A DNA stretch of 64,000 bases, from contig JAUIGE010000001.1 of NCBI GenBank assembly GCA_030430205.1, forward strand, positions 372,001 through 436,000, read 5' to 3'. This stretch comes from Bacteroidia bacterium (GTDB lineage Bacteria > Bacteroidota > Bacteroidia > J057). Shown here in pieces: positions 34,006 to 44,973 of the stretch (its first letter is position 1; each line of letters begins with the position of its first letter). The notes under the pieces were generated by a model. That model had not been told where the DNA came from. It saw only the letters and a program-made list of their open reading frames with translations, and made no database searches. The position numbers were made by a program, and so were the translations under genes.

Positions 34006-37000
34006 TTATTTCACCACCGTCTCCCGATAACTCGGGAGATACCAGCTATCGCTACGCGCCTGCTCCAGGGTATAGACCCTGGCCTTGCCCTTATACCGCC
34101 ACATATCTGTGGCCTGATTTCCGACTTTGATCGTGAAACGATCTGAGTAAGAGCGATACACTTTGAGGTCGTCAAAGAGGACTTCGGCGCTGCCGGTGCG
34201 GAAGGAAACATAATGCCCCGATTTGAGCGGGATGAGCGGATCTTGCCAGGCAAGAGCGATCTCGTTATTGAGGTAGATTTCTATTTTGCCCAGCACTGCA
34301 TCGTAGAGGATTTTCACATCGTACCAGATGTCAGTTTTTAGATCGATCGTGGCTGACCGTTTTTTATCTATCACATCGTCAGAAGAGCGATAGATTTCGA
34401 CTTTGTCGGCTTCGCTGTCATTTTTTCTGAACCATACAAAGTAGGAATCGCCGCGGTTGGGTTTGCTGGCATCACTGCAAAAGAAGTGAAAGCCAAAGCG
34501 TTTGTTGTCGCCGGTGCTCAGGATGCGCGCATCGAAGTTGTAGAGGTAGCTCGTATTGCCTGTCTGGAGCAGGCGGTGATGCAGGTTGCCGTTGGTGGCC
34601 TCGGGGTCGGATTGGCGAAGGTTGCCAAAGAGGTTGATTTCCCATTTACCGACTTCCTGCTTCCAGCCTTTTTCTATTTTGCCAAAGTTATCGTGCAAAA
34701 AGCCTTGCTGATCGTTGGCGGTCCAGTTGGCCCCGTCATAGTCCGACGCCAGCACAAAGCGCTGGTCTACGCCGTCTCTCGGCGGAAAGTCAATGATAAA
34801 ATCATGGCTGTAGCTGCTGCCCAGCCATACTTTCGAACTAGCAGCTCCATTCAAAGCCGCTTTGGCTTTGTTGGTCTCGCCGCCCCGGCTTGCGCCGCTA
34901 TTGGCGCTACCCGACGATCCGGAAGTACTTCCGGATGAACCGCCGGAAGTCGTACTTCCGCCAGTATTCCCGCCTGTACTTGTGCCCGTATTTCCACCGG
35001 AACTTCCGCCTGTGTTTCCACTTGTATTTCCTCCGGAACTTGTTCCGCCTCCTGAGTTTGCAATCGTTCCGCTATCAGCAGAAAAGAAAATTTTTGCGCC
35101 TTCAGCGCTGACAGGCGACCAAAGCAAGCGGTCGCCCCAGCCGACCACGAGGGTGCTGATGCGCACTGCGTCGGTGCGCTTATCGGGACTTTCGACCCGA
35201 ACGGTATTGGGTTCATTGGGTCCGACGGTAATGGTCACCGACTGCTGGCGATTTTGAAAAATTTGAATATCATCATATTCCGCCACGCAGCCGCCAGTGC
35301 GGAGAGAAATGGCTTTTCCCGTTTTGATTGGCTTCGGATCTGTCCATGCCACCCGAAATGCATTGTCCATATAGACTTCCATGCGCCCTTTGCGCGGATT
35401 ATAGACGACTTTGAAGTCATAAGCCTCGTTTTCATTCAAGGTGACACGCTGGTCTGCGCGCATGGTAAATTCGTCATTTCGCACTTCGTAAATCTCTATT
35501 TTGTCCCCTTCGTCCGTATCCCGTATCCACACAAAATAGGAGTCCCCTCTGTCTTCCTTTTGCGGGTCGCTGCAGAAAAAGTGCAACCCAAAACGCTTAT
35601 TGGTAGACGTGCCACTCACCCGCCCTATCCAATGGTAGATGTAGGTATGATCGGCATCTTGCGCGACTTCCGCATAGAGGTTGCTGTTTCCTTCATTTGC
35701 ATTCAATTGGGCGAGTCGCCCATCTCTTACTTCCCAGCTGCCCGCGACAGCTTTCCAGTCCGGGTGCAGGCTGCTCCCGGAAAAATCATCAAAAAGGAAG
35801 CCTTTTTCGGTTACGCCACGGAATCCCTGTGGCGTATAGGTCGCCACGGAGTAAAAGCGGTTTGCCAGGCCCCGGCCATTTCTATCCCTGTCGTTAAAAC
35901 CGACATTGAAAGATTTGTCATAGCTGTTTTTAAGGCTGGGAGTAGAAAGAGGAGATTTATTGGTAAAAACCAAATTGGGTTTGAATGCTTTCGAAGGCAA
36001 GCTGACATTGACAGGTGGCGGGGTATTGTTTCCGTTATTTGTTGGATCTCCGCCTGTCGTTCCGCCAGAAGTATTTCCGCTGTTGTCAATCACTACGGTA
36101 ACTTGTCCATCATCGCTGGTATTGTTACCTCCGATCGTATTCCATTGCGCAGCCCAACCTGGGGCCATCGTCCGTTTGTCGGAAGTGAATACCAGGGTCA
36201 TGGCATTGCCGGAAGAAGTGACGGTCCCGGGGTTTTTGTTCCCAGAATATTTGCCTAACAGCTTGCTGCGGTCGTTTTCGCCATCGTAGATGCTGAGGAC
36301 GTCCAGGCCGTCTTCGGTTTCGAAGGAAGAAAATTTCATCTGCACCCTGCCGCCATTGGGCGGCTTGATCGTGTAGGAATATTCCTCCTGATCGCTGTAA
36401 TCGGCTTCCCGCCCGCCTGTATCATAAAATCGTCCGGCATTGAGGGAGACAATATATTGTTTCGCCTGGCCTTTTCGGCTGATGACCGGGGTCTGAAAAT
36501 TATGCCCGACACGGGCAGAGGTGTCTTTTGCGGTTCCGCAAACTGCTTCGAGTTGCCATTGATAGGGCGCGTCAGCGGCCAGGCCTGTGATCGTAATTTT
36601 GTTGTTTTGCGGTTTAAAAAGCAAGGCCTTCCCTCCGGGAATATTCCGCCGAATCAGGTATAGTTGATAATAATCAGCTTTATCAACCTTGTCCCAACTC
36701 AAGGTTGCCGTGAGTGCCGTCAGGCTTTTATCCTCTACCATCAAATTGGCAGGCGATCCACAGTCTTCTTTCTTTTTGTCGGAAGAATAGGAAATCTTCC
36801 ATCCCTCGTGATTGAACTGGCAATCGGATTGAAATTCGATATAGGCACGGCCCGTTTTGGCGACCAGTTTATTGGGTTTGGGTAAAGCGTTACCACTGAA
36901 TTTGCCCAGCAAAACGCCGTTTCTGTTATCGCCATCATATATTTCGATGATGTCATATCCTGCCTCTGTATCCAGTGCATCGAATGTCAATTCGAGCTGG

Positions 37001-38394
37001 GTAGCGTTTTTGGGTTTGATCCACCAGGCTGTGCGCTCCATATCGCCATAGTTTTTTCCCGCTCCGCCGCTGTCGTAAATCGTTCCGCTCTTATCTGTAA
37101 GCTCCTGAGGCTTAGGCTCTCCATTTATGAGACGGTAGTAGCGATCCCAATCCCAGTACTGCCCCGGGTCGGTGTGGTTATTTCCACTGAAATGCTGGTG
37201 GCCTTTGATTTTTGTACATTGGTCTCCCAAAAAATTCACTCCCTGGGTACTTTTTCCCGAAAAAGTCCGCTTGGGGTCGATGCCATGCCGCTTGCAAAGA
37301 TCGCGGACCAAAGCCGCAGAACTTTCATACATGGGGGTGCTGTACCAGGTGGCACCATCATCAATATAGCCTTCATGCTCAATGCCAACGGCCGAGCTGT
37401 TGTAGGTGATTTGGGATTTGGAATTTCTTCCTTTAACGTGAATGGCTTTGTCATTCTCGCAGACCATCTGCGTGATCTGTCCATCAAATGAACGCACAAT
37501 ATAATGTGCAGAAACGCGCGCAGCCCTATTTTTGAACCAGGAAATGGCGCTGGCATAAGAGCCTTGTATGGTGTGAATAGCTATAAACTCAACCTCGTTT
37601 CCGTCGCGACCTTCGCGGTAGTTGTTGGGGTCGGCAGCGACCCAGATGGAGCCGAAGTATCCGGCATTTTGATCGCAGGCAGCTGCGCTGCGTTCGGTGG
37701 CTCCCGAGCTCTGCACGCGGTAAGCGTGCCCGTCACCGCTGACGCGGTTGCGGCTCATGGTCACTTGTGAGGCACTCACGACACGCAGATTTTCTCCGAA
37801 AATCTCTTCGTAGTCAATTTGAGGCGCTATGCGCCGGGCTGTCTGACCCGTAGGGTAGGACGGGTTTTCAATCTGCTTCAAAACCGCATAGTACTGCTGG
37901 TCATGGGCAAATTCATCTATCAGGTCTCCGCTATTGGGAATTTCACTCAAAGTAGAAACCACATCTTTGTACGCACTCAGGTTGCTGCGGCTGGCAAGCC
38001 GTTTGTTTTGCTGCTCTCTGGCAAAGGTTTTGGCATAGGCCAAAATATTGGAGCGGGGATCATTGATGATCTGATCGCGGGAAAAATCCGGTGCGGCATA
38101 TTTCACCACTGTATCCAATGTGCTTTTGAAGCCACTGCTAAAAATCGAGTCGTTCAGTTTTACCAGACCCATCACCCCATAATAATCTGGCAACTTGGCA
38201 GAGCAGCTCTTCTTTTGAGGTTGCACATGGGTCATGTGGGTATTGGTCCAGGCAATGGACTCCAGCATCCCTTCTGGGATAGAGGGAAAACGGTTATAGG
38301 CTTCCTGAAAATAGGAACTGTAATCTGTCTGGGCATGGATGGCATTTCCCGCAAAAACAAAAAAAGACAATAGAGCGATTAGCGTTTTTTTCAT
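34006..38394 (-). CDS. Secreted multidomain N-acetylmuramoyl-L-alanine amidase with two CUB-like domains and a duplicated LamG-like module
   Basis: Signal peptide MKKTLIALLSFFVFAGNAIHA; amidase_2 EFIAIHTIQGSYASAISWFKN...VSAHYIVRSFDGQITQMV...GHQHFSGNNHTDPGQYWDW; CUB-like YDSGGAGKNYGDMERTAWWIKP; Gly/Ser linker. Confidence 0.85.
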   Translation of the reverse strand: MKKTLIALLSFFVFAGNAIHAQTDYSSYFQEAYNRFPSIPEGMLESIAWTNTHMTHVQPQKKSCSAKLPDYYGVMGLVKLNDSIFSSGFKSTLDTVVKYAAPDFSRDQIINDPRSNILAYAKTFAREQQNKRLASRSNLSAYKDVVSTLSEIPNSGDLIDEFAHDQQYYAVLKQIENPSYPTGQTARRIAPQIDYEEIFGENLRVVSASQVTMSRNRVSGDGHAYRVQSSGATERSAAACDQNAGYFGSIWVAADPNNYREGRDGNEVEFIAIHTIQGSYASAISWFKNRAARVSAHYIVRSFDGQITQMVCENDKAIHVKGRNSKSQITYNSSAVGIEHEGYIDDGATWYSTPMYESSAALVRDLCKRHGIDPKRTFSGKSTQGVNFLGDQCTKIKGHQHFSGNNHTDPGQYWDWDRYYRLINGEPKPQELTDKSGTIYDSGGAGKNYGDMERTAWWIKPKNATQLELTFDALDTEAGYDIIEIYDGDNRNGVLLGKFSGNALPKPNKLVAKTGRAYIEFQSDCQFNHEGWKISYSSDKKKEDCGSPANLMVEDKSLTALTATLSWDKVDKADYYQLYLIRRNIPGGKALLFKPQNNKITITGLAADAPYQWQLEAVCGTAKDTSARVGHNFQTPVISRKGQAKQYIVSLNAGRFYDTGGREADYSDQEEYSYTIKPPNGGRVQMKFSSFETEDGLDVLSIYDGENDRSKLLGKYSGNKNPGTVTSSGNAMTLVFTSDKRTMAPGWAAQWNTIGGNNTSDDGQVTVVIDNSGNTSGGTTGGDPTNNGNNTPPPVNVSLPSKAFKPNLVFTNKSPLSTPSLKNSYDKSFNVGFNDRDRNGRGLANRFYSVATYTPQGFRGVTEKGFLFDDFSGSSLHPDWKAVAGSWEVRDGRLAQLNANEGNSNLYAEVAQDADHTYIYHWIGRVSGTSTNKRFGLHFFCSDPQKEDRGDSYFVWIRDTDEGDKIEIYEVRNDEFTMRADQRVTLNENEAYDFKVVYNPRKGRMEVYMDNAFRVAWTDPKPIKTGKAISLRTGGCVAEYDDIQIFQNRQQSVTITVGPNEPNTVRVESPDKRTDAVRISTLVVGWGDRLLWSPVSAEGAKIFFSADSGTIANSGGGTSSGGNTSGNTGGSSGGNTGTSTGGNTGGSTTSGGSSGSTSGSSGSANSGASRGGETNKAKAALNGAASSKVWLGSSYSHDFIIDFPPRDGVDQRFVLASDYDGANWTANDQQGFLHDNFGKIEKGWKQEVGKWEINLFGNLRQSDPEATNGNLHHRLLQTGNTSYLYNFDARILSTGDNKRFGFHFFCSDASKPNRGDSYFVWFRKNDSEADKVEIYRSSDDVIDKKRSATIDLKTDIWYDVKILYDAVLGKIEIYLNNEIALAWQDPLIPLKSGHYVSFRTGSAEVLFDDLKVYRSYSDRFTIKVGNQATDMWRYKGKARVYTLEQARSDSWYLPSYRETVVK

Positions 38395-38555
38395 AAAATG
38401 ATCAGTTGGTCGGCTTCCGGATAGCGGCATAACTCAAATTAACGTATTATTCGCAAAAGTTCGCAAAAGTCCTTCATCTTAACTTACACAAGTTTCAATA
38501 TTTCTTGAATCTTTGCTAGCTTTAGCACGTTTATATTACCCAATGTAATAAGCAG

Positions 38556-39029
38556 ATGGCAGTCGATTTCAAAAAGAAAACAGAATATTATATAAAAGAC
38601 CTACACGCACGTGAATACATGCGCCTGGGGATTTATCGGCAAGTCGGAAGTCACGGGGGAGTAGAAAAAACGGAATTGCTCCGGGAGCGAAAATCCCGTC
38701 ACGAAGCATTTTTGAGAGATTTACTTAGAAAACGTGGAATCAACCCTGCTTGGTATGCCTGGTACTTTTATATGATCGGCCATTGCTTTGGGCTCATGGC
38801 GCGTATTCTCCCGCTCAGTTGGCTGGACCGTTTTGAGCAAACGATGGAGTTCTGGCTCCTGATGCGTTACAAAAATTATTTCCGCAAACTCAAGCTCGAC
38901 GCTTCTCTCAAATCTATGGTGGAGTCCATTCAACTTCAGCGCTTTGCGCACGATGAGCCTGCTGTGGATGTGTTGAATTTGATTGAGAATTATATTTTGG
39001 AGCAGGAAAAGAGTTTGACGATGAGGTAG
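38556..39029 (+). CDS. COQ7-like / ferritin-like-fold hypothetical protein
   Basis: HAREYMRLGIYRQVGSH...LLRERKSRHEAFLRDLLRKRGINPAWYAWYFYMIGHCFGL resembles the demethoxyubiquinone hydroxylase pattern; some ligand positions not conserved. Confidence 0.45.
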   Translation: MAVDFKKKTEYYIKDLHAREYMRLGIYRQVGSHGGVEKTELLRERKSRHEAFLRDLLRKRGINPAWYAWYFYMIGHCFGLMARILPLSWLDRFEQTMEFWLLMRYKNYFRKLKLDASLKSMVESIQLQRFAHDEPAVDVLNLIENYILEQEKSLTMR

Positions 39030-39229: not shown

Positions 39230-41206
39230 ATGAAGAACAAAGTAAATATTACCGACCGAAGCATCGAGTCGGCGGGGATTCCCAAGGACTACAAAGAAGC
39301 ATTGGCTGAACTTATCTGGAATGGCTATGATGCGGGGGCTTCCCGGGTCGAAATTCTTTTTGATACCAATGAGATTGAGCATGTTAACCAACTGACCGTC
39401 AAGGACAATGGCTGGGGAATTGATTACAGGAATCTTCCGATGACCTTTGGTACACTGCTGGATTCGGTCAAAAAACTCTCTTACCAGCGCTCTTCTTATG
39501 TCCGTGGGCAAAAAGGAAAAGGTCGCTTTTCGTTCACTACTTTTGCACGCCATGCCAACTGGTATACCGTCGTCAACCCCGAAGGCAAGGCCTACGCCTA
39601 CAATATCGCCATTGCCAGCAATAACAAAAACGAATACAACAGCACAGAACTGAAGGAGGTTTCAAAAGAAACTCCCACAGGAACGGAGGTCATTCTGACC
39701 AATCTGTTTGGCGTGACCGCATCCTCCTTTCAATCAGCGGATTTTCATGAGTTTCTTTGCCAGGAGTTTGGCTGGTTTCTCTTTTTGAACCGCAAAAATC
39801 AATTTAGCCTGCTGATCAATGGAGAGGAATTAAATTATTCCAGCATCATCGCTGAGTATGATGTGAAAGCCGTCATACTGGATGATGAAGACAAGTCTTA
39901 TTCTTTTGACCTGACATTTATCCGCTGGAAAACGCGCATAGGGGATCGCTACTATTATTATTTTCTCAATCAGAAAAAAAGAGAAGTAGCCAAGTTGCTG
40001 ACTTCTTTTAACAACAACGCCATAGATTTTCACCACAGCGTCTATGTGGAGTCCGATTTTTTCAATGATTTCAGCTATGATCGGGAAGATCCGGGCTCGC
40101 GCCTGATCGGCAAAAACCAAAGCCACCCTGTCTATCGCGAGTTGTTGCGCGAACTGCACGAATACCTCAATAAGAAGGAACAATTGTTCATTCACCGGGA
40201 AGCGGCGGACCGCTTGTTGCGTGAGTATCAGGTACTTGGCATCCTGCCTACCTTCTCCGGCAATCGCCTGGAGCAGGAAAAGACCCAAAAGCTGGAAAAA
40301 CTCATCAAGGAGCTTTATGCGCTTCAGCCCAAAATTTTCAAAAGCCTGCGCAAGGAGCAACAGAAGATCTTTGTGGGCATGCTGGAGATATTGATGGAGT
40401 CTGCTGACAGAACACGCCTGGTAGATGTGCTCTCCGAAATCACTGAACTGGACGAAAGCAGCCGCCATGAATTGAGGGCTTTACTGGAAAAAGACGAGCT
40501 TTTTGAAGCCAGCCAGAATGTGAGGATGATTGAAGATCGCAATAGCGCGATCACCATGCTCCAGCACTTTTCGGATTCAGATATTTTATTTGAAGCAGAA
40601 AAAGAAGAAACCCGCCGCATCATGGGCGAGCACTGCTGGATGCTGGGCGAAAATTATCACATGACTTCTCCCAATATCACCAGCGAAGCATTTTTACGGG
40701 AATCTCTGACCATCCTGGATGGGAAAAAGAAAGCCAGAAGCAAAAAGGAAGCGGAAGTTCCGCATTACCAAAGTCGCCCGGATGTCTTTGTCACCCGAAA
40801 AAGATTGCTTCCTTCTCCCGGCAAAGGGCCTTATGGTTTGGAGGAAAATATATTGATCGACGTCAAACGCCCTGCCTATACCCTGGGCCAGGGCGATCTC
40901 CGGCAGGCAGCAGCCTATCTGCGCTATGTCATCAAGGATCCACAGCATAATGGCGGCGATCAACTCTGGAAGTTTTTTCTCATCGCCGAAAAAGCAGATG
41001 CTTACATTAAGGAGCAGTACCACTCCTACGCCAGTAAAGGCAAACCCTACCTTATCCAGGGCCTTCGCAACTTTGAGATTTACGCGCTTTGCTGGAAAGA
41101 CATTTTCAACAATTACGCCCAGGCGCATAGCTACTTCCTGAGCCGCCAAAAAATGGACCGCTCCATTTTGGATCAGGCACTTTGGGAGAAGGGGATTAAG
41201 TTGTAA
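39230..41206 (+). CDS. GHKL (Hsp90/MutL/MORC-like) ATPase fused to PD-(D/E)XK-like C-terminal domain
   Basis: N box ALAELIWNGYDAGASRVEI, G1 VKDNGWGID, G2 VRGQKGKGRFSFTTFA, G3 TPTGTEVILTNL; C-terminal RPDVFVTRK...NILIDVKRPAYTLGQGDLRQAAAYLRYV. Confidence 0.85.
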   Translation: MKNKVNITDRSIESAGIPKDYKEALAELIWNGYDAGASRVEILFDTNEIEHVNQLTVKDNGWGIDYRNLPMTFGTLLDSVKKLSYQRSSYVRGQKGKGRFSFTTFARHANWYTVVNPEGKAYAYNIAIASNNKNEYNSTELKEVSKETPTGTEVILTNLFGVTASSFQSADFHEFLCQEFGWFLFLNRKNQFSLLINGEELNYSSIIAEYDVKAVILDDEDKSYSFDLTFIRWKTRIGDRYYYYFLNQKKREVAKLLTSFNNNAIDFHHSVYVESDFFNDFSYDREDPGSRLIGKNQSHPVYRELLRELHEYLNKKEQLFIHREAADRLLREYQVLGILPTFSGNRLEQEKTQKLEKLIKELYALQPKIFKSLRKEQQKIFVGMLEILMESADRTRLVDVLSEITELDESSRHELRALLEKDELFEASQNVRMIEDRNSAITMLQHFSDSDILFEAEKEETRRIMGEHCWMLGENYHMTSPNITSEAFLRESLTILDGKKKARSKKEAEVPHYQSRPDVFVTRKRLLPSPGKGPYGLEENILIDVKRPAYTLGQGDLRQAAAYLRYVIKDPQHNGGDQLWKFFLIAEKADAYIKEQYHSYASKGKPYLIQGLRNFEIYALCWKDIFNNYAQAHSYFLSRQKMDRSILDQALWEKGIKL

Positions 41207-41209
41207 TTC

Positions 41210-43918
41210 TTACAATCCCACTTTGTGCCACACACTTTTCAAATCTCCCAGGAGGTCATTTGCCTGTAGGTAGTAAAATGATTGGGGGTTCTGGGCCAAA
41301 GCCATTAGGTATTTTTCAGCCAGGTCGCTATATCCTCTTTTCATAAAAGTCAGAGAAGTATACCAAATGCCCATTTCCTTCACATTTGTCTTGTGATTGC
41401 CCAGTTTGGAAATCCGGAGAAGGGCTTCATTGTATTGCTCTTTTTCCAGGTAAAAACAGCCCTCACTTATCCATAGGGCAATATCTGATGTCTCATTTCC
41501 CTTGAGTTCGTATGATTTATAGTATTTTTCAAAAAGGGCGTCCCGGCTATATTGCTGGGCCTGGTGTACAGAAAATATGCCGATGCAAGTGGGCAAAAAG
41601 CTAATAGCCACGACAACAAGCGCTTTTTGAAGCCGGACATCTGCTTTGTCCCAAAGTGTCCACAGCTTTTGCATCCAGCGCTCGCTCCAACCGACATGCA
41701 TTTCCTTAACTGGGACTGTCTGCTGTTTTTCATGGAGCAAATCATGCTGAAGCAAAAACTGCATTTGCTTTTGCAAAGCGCTATTTTCTGGCTGTGCCTG
41801 TGCAACAGCCATGGTGCGGTATGTTTCCCGCAGCTTCCAGGCGGCGCTGTTTTGCAGGAGATCCGCATCTTCAAGTGCGGCGGAGATGGCAAGCGTAGCT
41901 TGCTGAGCTGTGGCAGGCGCCATATTGGCGAGCAATTCTTTGCGAAGGGCTTTTGGCCATTCAGCCTGCTGAATCCAGGGAACAGAGGCCAATTTGCTCA
42001 GATTCTCTATTGTCAGGAGTGTCTGACCCTTTTTGTCTTTCACCAACAAATCCCCGGCATACGCATTTCTTTCCAGTGCCTCCCCTACTTCCATGATGAT
42101 TTTCCAATCGGGTTTCGGGTAGAGCATAGCTGATGTCAGCCATTCAAACACATCTTCGCCCAGAAAGGCGCGTACATTTTCTTCTTTTTCAAAATCAAGG
42201 GTTTCAAGAGAATGAAATTCCTGTAGCTGGGCAAAAACTTTTTCGCGCAAGTCATCAAAAGCGGCATGCTCCGGATCGAGCATGGCTTCGGTCAGCATTT
42301 GCTGGCTGGAAGTGTTGAATGGCAACAACAGAAAAAAGGAAGCCAGCGTTTCTTCACGCTTTCCCCATAGCCCCTGCGGCTGCGGGCTGAGCAAAATCCG
42401 CTGCTCAAATTCTGCAAATTCACCTGCAAGCCAATCAGCCATCTCCCGCTGATTGGGAGCCATCATATAGCTGCCTTTGCTGAATATGATCAGGCGATGC
42501 ATCCCATACCTTTGGGCGAGGGTAGAAAGCCCGATTTCCTGCTGAGTGCCGGGGACATAACATGTTCGGGGGTCGCTATTGAAGGTGTAAATGTGCAAGT
42601 GCACGCCCTCTTTGCGCAGCATGCGCATCAATTCCATAAACAGGCCTGCCTGTACTTCGGAAGGCGCGCTTTGGTCTACCAGAATCAGGTATTCTGCTTC
42701 TTTTTCAATCGGTGAATATTGAAGCATGGGATAGCCACCCGCACGGATGGTTTCATATAAAGTCGCATCAAAATCCAGGCGATCATGCTCGCTTGTTTGA
42801 GGATGTTTCATGGCCCGGGCCAGCGCATAAAATGCTGCTTCTGGCTCCAACTCATGGGTATTCTCATTTTGAGGAAGTTGATAGGGCGCGTCTTTTTCGG
42901 GAAGAAATTTATGGCTGAAAGCTCTTTGATAATAAGCAAAGCGATACCAGCGCATATAAAGTTCTGTCCCCAGAACGAGCAGGATGTATAAGCCAAAAAA
43001 CAGGAGTTTGACAAAAAATTGTTTTCTCTCCAGTTGAGCTTGTTTTTGGGCCCTATTGACAGTCAAAGTACTGTTTCCTTCCGGACTTACCAGTACGTGC
43101 ATGGTAGCGGTTGCATTTGGATTTCGAAATTCTACCCTTGCATAACTATCCCCATAACCTTGTGCAACTCCATCCTCTATTTCCAGTTTTATACTGTGAA
43201 TTCCTTTTTCTGAAAAAGTAACCCAAACTTCTTGTCCCTGATGAGGCAATTCTTTGTCATCCAAAAACCAGTGGTAGATATAGTTTTCTGCCTGATAGCG
43301 GTTTCTAAACTTCACCTGCTTCCCTACTTCAGGATAAAAGACATCAGAAACGATTTCTACCTTTCCGATCTTTTTCTCCTGCCCCTTATCTTCTTGTTTT
43401 TGTTTTTCACTGTCTGCTGCTTCAGGCGTTTTAGCTTTCGCTTTTTCTTCTTTATCAATGGTGATTTCCTGTTTCGATGGTTGGGGAACTTGTGGTTGAG
43501 GTTGGCCTTTGAAAAATAAAATCAAAAAGAGTAAAATCAGCAGCCCTCCAAAGGGATATACCCAAAGCCGCCTTTTGCGGGCAGCTCGCTGAAAGTCTGA
43601 ATCTACATTTTCTGCAATCCTTTCATTGTTCTCCTGTTCATCCCTTTCCGCCAATTGTGCTGTCCATGCAGCATTTCCCGCTAAAATTTCTTCATAAAAT
43701 TTTTCAAACACATCCCTGAAGCGGATTTGTTCTTCTTCCGACTTCGCCACAATGGGCGACAGAATTTCGGGTAATTTATCTGGATGATTGAGGTATTCCT
43801 TGCCAAAGGCATTGACTATCTTTTGCAGGCGGTAATATGTCGCTGCATCGATCTCAAAGTCCGCCGCTTTCAGGCGTTGAACCAGACTTTCCAGTGGAAG
43901 AACAAAAGTATTTGACAT
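41210..43918 (-). CDS. Transmembrane vWA-like protein with PKD-like segment, CoxE/SAV_2336-like N-terminus and C-terminal TPR-like tail
   Basis: N-terminus ILSPIVAKSEEEQIRFRDVFEKFYEEIL; TM LLILLFLILFF; PKD-like FRNRYQAENYIYHWFLDDKE; vWA-like EAEYLILVDQSAPSEVQAGLFMELMRMLRKEGVHLHIYTFNSD; LMALAQNPQSFYYLQANDLLGDL. Confidence 0.7.
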   Translation of the reverse strand: MSNTFVLPLESLVQRLKAADFEIDAATYYRLQKIVNAFGKEYLNHPDKLPEILSPIVAKSEEEQIRFRDVFEKFYEEILAGNAAWTAQLAERDEQENNERIAENVDSDFQRAARKRRLWVYPFGGLLILLFLILFFKGQPQPQVPQPSKQEITIDKEEKAKAKTPEAADSEKQKQEDKGQEKKIGKVEIVSDVFYPEVGKQVKFRNRYQAENYIYHWFLDDKELPHQGQEVWVTFSEKGIHSIKLEIEDGVAQGYGDSYARVEFRNPNATATMHVLVSPEGNSTLTVNRAQKQAQLERKQFFVKLLFFGLYILLVLGTELYMRWYRFAYYQRAFSHKFLPEKDAPYQLPQNENTHELEPEAAFYALARAMKHPQTSEHDRLDFDATLYETIRAGGYPMLQYSPIEKEAEYLILVDQSAPSEVQAGLFMELMRMLRKEGVHLHIYTFNSDPRTCYVPGTQQEIGLSTLAQRYGMHRLIIFSKGSYMMAPNQREMADWLAGEFAEFEQRILLSPQPQGLWGKREETLASFFLLLPFNTSSQQMLTEAMLDPEHAAFDDLREKVFAQLQEFHSLETLDFEKEENVRAFLGEDVFEWLTSAMLYPKPDWKIIMEVGEALERNAYAGDLLVKDKKGQTLLTIENLSKLASVPWIQQAEWPKALRKELLANMAPATAQQATLAISAALEDADLLQNSAAWKLRETYRTMAVAQAQPENSALQKQMQFLLQHDLLHEKQQTVPVKEMHVGWSERWMQKLWTLWDKADVRLQKALVVVAISFLPTCIGIFSVHQAQQYSRDALFEKYYKSYELKGNETSDIALWISEGCFYLEKEQYNEALLRISKLGNHKTNVKEMGIWYTSLTFMKRGYSDLAEKYLMALAQNPQSFYYLQANDLLGDLKSVWHKVGL

Positions 43919-43954
43919 GGGAAAAAATTCAGTTACTCACAGATAATACACCAC

Positions 43955-43975
43955 TTATTCACATATTTATCCACA
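43955..43975 (+). promoter_or_regulatory. Two adjacent DnaA-box sequences (TTATTCACA, TTATCCACA)
   Basis: 43955-43963 and 43967-43975 in the MoxR-vWA intergenic gap. Confidence 0.6.
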
Positions 43976-44010
43976 ATAGATAAAACTGTATCCTGCTTAC
44001 CGGATACTGC

Positions 44011-44973
44011 TTAGGCCAGCCACTTTTCGATTTCTTTCAAATCCTCCTGGGTTTTGGCGATCACGGCGTAGCTTTGGCGCAATAGCTGTTTTTGCTCAAT
44101 ATTGAGCCTGCTCCAGTTGGGGTTTGTTTTGAGGAAGTCATTCACTTCCAGTATTCGCAACCAGGCCAGCAGTTCGGCTGTAGCCGGTTTTTTCTTTTTC
44201 ATCAATGAGCGCAGCAACAAAAAGTGATCGAGCAATTCTCCATCGCTATAGGCGCTTTGCTCTCCCAATTGGCTTTTAACAATTTGAATCAAACTCTTTT
44301 TTGAAGGAAAAGGAATATGGTAAAAAACGCAACGCCGAAGGAATGCTTCTGGCAGGTGCTTCTCAGAGTTTGACGTCAGGACAACGACTATTCGCTGCGC
44401 TTCTCCTTTTTGGATAAGCAAATTATTCGCTTCCTTGATCTGAAAATTATAATGCTCGATTTCGTGCAAAATATCATTGGGGAAATCGCGGGGCGCTTTG
44501 TCAATTTCGTCAATCAGAACGACGGAGCTACGAGCTTCTTGCTGTGAGATAAATTGGCCTGTGGCCAGGGCTTGCTCATCAGTCATGGCAATGGCTTTTC
44601 CCAAAGCTTGTAACTGGATATAATGAGAAGTGTCAGGCGCTTCTTTTCCCTGGGTCTTGCTGAGGTTTGCATCATGAAAATGTCGCAAGGCGTCATAGGT
44701 GTAGAGCATGTCTGTCGCTTTGGAAGTCGTCTTGGTGTGAAACACCAGTGGCTCTGGCAGAAAATGGGCATCTTCCTTTGCCAAGTCGTGAGCGATTCGA
44801 TACGCGAGTAGCGTTTTGCCTGTACCAGGTTCTCCGGTTAGCAGCAAGGGCTGCCCAAGGGTAAGTGCAACTTGCACCGCCGCATGAAGCCCTTTATCCA
44901 AAACATAGTTTTCGGGAGAAAATGCGCCTTTGGAGAAGCTACGCTCGGGCAGGGAAATTTTGAAGGATGTCAT
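44011..44973 (-). CDS. MoxR-family AAA+ ATPase
   Basis: LLTGEPGTGKTLLAYRIAHDL (Walker A), SSVVLIDEIDKAPRDFPNDILHEIE (Walker B), VVLTSNSEKHLPEAFLRRCVFYHIPFP. Confidence 0.92.
   Translation of the reverse strand: MTSFKISLPERSFSKGAFSPENYVLDKGLHAAVQVALTLGQPLLLTGEPGTGKTLLAYRIAHDLAKEDAHFLPEPLVFHTKTTSKATDMLYTYDALRHFHDANLSKTQGKEAPDTSHYIQLQALGKAIAMTDEQALATGQFISQQEARSSVVLIDEIDKAPRDFPNDILHEIEHYNFQIKEANNLLIQKGEAQRIVVVLTSNSEKHLPEAFLRRCVFYHIPFPSKKSLIQIVKSQLGEQSAYSDGELLDHFLLLRSLMKKKKPATAELLAWLRILEVNDFLKTNPNWSRLNIEQKQLLRQSYAVIAKTQEDLKEIEKWLA

Follow-up and report, generated by a model that had tools for sequence, protein, structure and literature searches.

A putative paraMORC3-type GHKL ATPase-nuclease gene and a two-gene MoxR-vWA pair are probably independent neighbours in a Bacteroidia genome

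Introduction

GHKL ATPases fused to nucleases and MoxR ATPases paired with vWA proteins both recur in conflict systems, as a first-pass annotation of the DNA analysed here had correctly noted. Among the former, paraMORC3 proteins with a C-terminal nuclease often stand alone in Bacteroidetes (Iyer, Abhiman & Aravind 2008; PMC2292703), and VcSduA, the GHKL-Shedu of Vibrio cholerae, is a one-gene phage defence for which ATPase and nuclease residues are both needed (PMC12137116). Among the latter, the iSTAND systems of Bacteroidetes contain membrane vWA proteins with a 4-helical N-domain (Kaur 2020; PMC7159879), and the MoxR-vWA pairs CoxD-CoxE, NorQ-NorD and RavA-ViaA assemble enzymes (PMC7159879).

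Here we analysed a window of 64,000 nucleotides from a Bacteroidia bacterium (contig JAUIGE010000001.1), in which a GHKL ATPase-nuclease gene lies next to a MoxR-vWA pair. The first-pass annotation had proposed that the three genes form one functional module, while allowing that their adjacency could be due to chance. Our comparison instead supports two independent loci placed tail to tail, a stand-alone paraMORC3-type protein and a two-gene iSTAND-type MoxR-vWA switch, an explanation to which we assign a probability of roughly 0.87.

Results

Layout of the locus

The open reading frames described previously were recovered with the same coordinates, strands and lengths (658, 902 and 320 aa), which establishes the gene structure of the region:

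39230..41206, plus strand: GHKL ATPase and predicted PD-(D/E)xK nuclease, 658 aa, stand-alone
41210..43918, minus strand: membrane PKD/vWA-family protein, 902 aa, of probable iSTAND-system type, short clade
44011..44973, minus strand: MoxR-type AAA+ ATPase, 320 aa
45030..45956, minus strand: methyltransferase at the border of a methyltransferase-mnmG-ybeY-rsbW block, outside both systems

With their 3' ends at 41206 and 41210, the GHKL and vWA genes are 3 bp apart; because the two are convergent, they cannot share an operon. Upstream of the vWA gene and on its strand come MoxR, after 92 bp, and then the methyltransferase, 56 bp upstream of MoxR. Base composition around the MoxR-vWA pair shows no sharp boundary. 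Elsewhere in the window, a secreted-looking protein of 1474 aa with an Amidase_2 and two CUB domains is encoded at 34006-38430 (minus strand), and an ORF of 157 aa with a sub-threshold COQ7 match lies just upstream of the GHKL gene (38556-39029, plus strand); no homologue of this ORF was found beside the GHKL gene of a same-genus genome.

The GHKL gene is not linked to MoxR-vWA genes

If the three genes formed one module, the GHKL-nuclease would stand in for the missing iSTAND protein, serving as the effector that a MoxR-vWA membrane sensor activates. The 3-bp convergent spacing, the locus without an iSTAND gene, the vWA protein without a recognisable effector domain and the origin of both halves in conflict-related families all speak for such a module. 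The impossibility of a shared operon speaks against it, as does the neighbourhood survey of GHKL homologues that the first-pass annotation had itself proposed. Since only three relatives came up when genome contigs were scanned with the GHKL protein, this survey rests mainly on sampled genomes; it covered nine other GHKL loci, namely L041 (same genus), L042, L043 and L082-L087, and in none of the nine did a MoxR or vWA gene adjoin the GHKL homologue, the outcome for which the first-pass annotation had declared the three genes unrelated.

The same-genus locus is the most direct comparison. Its GHKL protein is 64% identical to that of the window and its gene adjoins the same methyltransferase-mnmG-ybeY-rsbW block. 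There, pheT and a small gene take the place of the MoxR-vWA pair; this genome carries its own MoxR-vWA pairs on other contigs. The GHKL gene has thus kept its position without an adjoining MoxR-vWA pair. Furthermore, it is convergent with pheT across a gap of 6 bp, so the 3-bp spacing in the window is unremarkable. At the remaining eight loci, neither a MoxR nor a vWA gene occurred in the stretches read. Six of the nine homologues lay within or close to groups of restriction, HEPN or AbiE genes:

L042: Eco57I methylase and AAA_13
L043: GmrSD_N and HEPN
L082: AbiEii
L083 and L084: type I restriction-modification
L086: Eco57I

At L043 (3044-6953), GmrSD_N (DUF262) and RiboL-PSP HEPN genes lie directly upstream of the GHKL-nuclease homologue, an arrangement that recalls GrwAB and VcSduA of V. 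cholerae. At L082 (8653-12362), the homologue comes straight after AbiEii and DUF6088, and genes near it look mobilisation-like by eye.

Co-occurrence gave the same picture. The eight more distant GHKL-positive genomes, each searched whole, yielded no vWA homologue, although the query detects one in 12 of the 22 genomes of the order and, across the phylum, in 14 of 392 sampled. Within the order, the GHKL gene was present in only two of the 12 vWA-positive genomes; both order genomes with GHKL also hold MoxR-vWA pairs, at a frequency compatible with chance (P = 0.29). Nor did the other short vWA proteins of the iSTAND-less clade described below have a GHKL gene nearby. Collectively, synteny, neighbourhood and co-occurrence establish that the GHKL gene is unlinked to MoxR-vWA genes in the genomes sampled and fit the chance adjacency allowed for at the outset; the one-module idea is rejected on these grounds, is largely refuted by the neighbourhood data and, in our judgement, is very improbable.

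The GHKL protein carries conserved ATPase and nuclease motifs

Two domains were delineated in the GHKL protein:

39293..39661, plus strand: GHKL ATPase domain, aa 22-144, with N-box E27/N31/D34, G1 motif D59-N-G-x-G and G2 glycines G93/G96/G98
40598..41095, plus strand: predicted C-terminal PD-(D/E)xK nuclease domain, about aa 457-622, with E457, D518, D544-x-K546 and Q559

The previous naming of this gene as a GHKL ATPase-nuclease proved correct. Its N-terminal part matched HATPase_c_3 in Pfam (E 2e-17) and the BbrUII/HgiDII restriction enzyme N-terminus in NCBIfam (E 4e-15, far under the family cut-off), and an alignment of ten GHKL homologues showed E27, N31, D34, D59, G61, G93, G96 and G98 to be invariant or nearly so. 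The C-terminal nuclease taken alone lay below Pfam detection. In the same alignment, however, E457, K546 and P548 were invariant, D518 was kept in nine of ten rows, and position 544 was D or E in all ten; E457, D518, (D or E)544-x-K546 and Q559 make up a set typical of PD-(D/E)xK nucleases. Domain identity and the conservation of the ATPase and of most nuclease motifs are thereby established.

In the AlphaFold model (mean pLDDT 78.7), D518 and D544-K546 sit at two successive strands (519-527 and 537-545). A fold search with the full model was dominated by Hsp90 and MutL N-terminal matches and was uninformative on the nuclease. With regard to the S5 domain expected behind the GHKL domain of a paraMORC3 protein, the model has strands after its GHKL part, and the TRAP1 and MutL matches span the GHKL and transducer parts, though with low TM-scores. 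Motifs and predicted secondary structure together indicate that the C-terminal part is a nuclease.

The third nuclease motif reads D-V-K in the window protein, as against the usual E-L-K of its homologues. The same-genus protein (L041:10001-11971) likewise has D for E in this motif and, in addition, has D518 replaced by alanine. Between these two proteins, the nuclease half is 54% conserved compared to 85% for aa 161-300. Given the altered third motif and the loss of D518 in the second copy, the nuclease may be weakening or decaying in this genus.

Filing of the GHKL protein

We also considered whether the protein might be a true type I-D Shedu (DUF4263), a filing question compatible with two independent loci. 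The domain order is identical to that of VcSduA, the catalytic residues are of the same kind at comparable positions (E27 and K546 in the window protein, E27 and K557 in VcSduA), and weak SduA matches occurred in three of ten GHKL homologues. Conversely, SduA_C (PF14082) gave no match even at E <= 10 in the own genome and seven other GHKL-positive genomes, the window protein had no SduA match in PADLOC, and the one weak SduA match of known position spans the middle helices, not the nuclease. Membership in DUF4263/Shedu was thus not established by Pfam or PADLOC, and we regard it as possible but doubtful. Because the Shedu profile found no match, we file the protein as paraMORC3-type, the architecture that its sequence indicates, and describe it as one that may work like VcSduA, not as Shedu.

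The MoxR protein and its membrane vWA partner

The 320-aa protein was rightly named a MoxR AAA+ ATPase: it matched AAA (E 3e-11) and AAA_5 (E 1e-9) in Pfam, and its Walker A (GEPGTGKT) and Walker B (VVLIDE) motifs are intact. The following parts were delineated in its partner:

43574..43918, minus strand: N-terminal helical domain, aa 1-115, common to vWA proteins of iSTAND loci
43496..43573, minus strand: TM1, aa 116-141, by hydropathy
43088..43345, minus strand: PKD-like domain, about aa 192-277, predicted outside the cytoplasm
42947..43024, minus strand: TM2, aa 299-324, by hydropathy
42314..42706, minus strand: degenerate vWA-like domain, about aa 405-535, with D415-Q-S-A-P
41579..41638, minus strand: TM3, aa 761-780, by hydropathy
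41222..41491, minus strand: C-terminal helical region, aa 810-899, TPR-like by eye

Profile matches of the vWA protein were weak (VWA_CoxE, E 0.04; PKD, E 0.17). In a fold search with its model, PKD structures ranked top (4u6t, TMt 0.65, prob 1.0) and the MoxR/vWA complex NorQD ranked lower (prob 0.91, E 0.026), with no match reaching E 0.001. Because confidence in this model is low (mean pLDDT 62.5), we used the PKD match alone and treated NorQD as a weak hint. The earlier designation as a membrane vWA-PKD protein is consistent with these matches, and its description of the vWA domain as degenerate was accurate: the motif reads D415-Q-S-A-P, the second MIDAS aspartate is missing, and homologues, those at iSTAND loci included, are equally degenerate. 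Alignment with vWA proteins of iSTAND loci extended over the N-terminal helical domain, TM1, PKD, TM2, vWA and TM3. Hydropathy and flanking charge suggest a topology with the PKD domain outside the cytoplasm.

The pair is related to iSTAND loci but lacks the iSTAND gene

Subsequently, relatives of the pair were compared across the order and phylum. Within the order, 12 of 22 genomes had vWA homologues and 13 of 22 had MoxR homologues; the 14 positives among the 392 sampled genomes of the phylum include the window's own. A MoxR of matching type shares the locus at 11 of the 12 other sampled vWA loci, the exception being L052, and at six of those 11 there is a third gene with the Pfam iSTAND domain (PF19995), preceded by a CHAT domain at four and by a caspase domain at one. 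The kinship of the window pair with iSTAND loci is thus established. No iSTAND gene was found adjoining the pair, whose own genome carries iSTAND at other loci only, and its sequence indicates an iSTAND-type MoxR-vWA system without the iSTAND gene.

Two MoxR-vWA-iSTAND loci occur elsewhere in the own genome (L053, G000:C17; L054, G000:C20), one with a caspase and one with a CHAT domain; their vWA proteins measure 1401 and 1577 aa.

The vWA tree groups the short proteins of the window and of G014 (L045), G013 (L044) and G011 (L048) in a single clade (support 100/99), whose four loci all lack the iSTAND gene; the tree of MoxR proteins does not contradict this grouping but does not resolve it either. 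An all-against-all comparison of neighbours revealed no extra gene common to the short pairs. Tentatively, and at slightly less than even odds, we propose that the short branch is a distinct two-gene membrane derivative of the iSTAND ternary systems that has shed the iSTAND sensor and effector and that works with MoxR only or borrows an iSTAND protein in trans; because the own genome holds iSTAND genes elsewhere, one of them could act from another locus. In a different clade, L046 (1514-7067) encodes a long vWA protein (1513 aa) and MoxR with no iSTAND nearby, whereas other members of that clade have iSTAND; here the gene may have been lost a second time or displaced.

The main rival to a defence role for the two-gene form is a housekeeping chaperone of the RavA-ViaA, CoxDE or NorQD kind that assembles a membrane enzyme or envelope protein. 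Such a function would suit a short clade without effector, third gene or common neighbours, the membrane anchoring of the vWA protein and the weak NorQD match. It is harder to reconcile with nearest sequence relatives that include pairs at iSTAND-CHAT or iSTAND-caspase loci, with the patchy spread over order and phylum, and with the vWA protein diverging much faster than MoxR (about 29% versus 62% identity to the same locus), as conflict genes should. We consider a housekeeping function unlikely.

Discussion

Our findings strike a false three-gene system from the list of candidates and place each half in a described conflict family. The activities of both loci and any anti-phage role are predictions drawn from these families. 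In the GHKL protein, by analogy with its family, ATP-driven dimerisation would close a clamp on DNA, and clamp closure would gate or license the C-terminal PD-(D/E)xK nuclease, which might then cut invading DNA as proposed for VcSduA. The MoxR-vWA pair may constitute a membrane-anchored AAA+/vWA co-chaperone switch of the iSTAND type, cut down to two genes: with the PKD domain predicted outside the cytoplasm, the degenerate vWA domain would face the interior and contact the MoxR ring, whose ATP-driven remodelling of its membrane partner could determine the threshold at which the membrane responds. A monophyletic MoxR-vWA pair without iSTAND could reveal the minimal parts of such proposed threshold-setting switches.

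Compared with described systems, the GHKL protein shares with paraMORC3 the GHKL ATPase and the C-terminal E-D-(D/E)xK nuclease; paraMORC3 members often stand alone in Bacteroidetes and otherwise accompany restriction-modification genes, and the window protein is stand-alone, but their third motif is E-x-K where the window's genus has D-x-K (PMC2292703). Like VcSduA, it is a single gene encoding a GHKL ATPase followed by a PD-(D/E)xK nuclease; VcSduA, however, is a Shedu (PMC12137116), whereas the window protein has no detectable DUF4263/SduA_C and its anti-phage role is predicted only. The MoxR-vWA pair resembles the iSTAND ternary systems in its adjacent genes, helical N-domain and TM segments, and its vWA protein is sequence kin of loci with PF19995 genes. 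It differs from them in that those systems include an iSTAND gene and mostly have MIDAS aspartates (PMC7159879), while the window locus has none of the former and its vWA protein is short, degenerate and without a recognisable effector. Like CoxD-CoxE, NorQ-NorD and RavA-ViaA, the pair combines a MoxR AAA+ ATPase with a vWA co-chaperone; a PKD domain and three TM segments predicted by hydropathy distinguish the window vWA protein from theirs.
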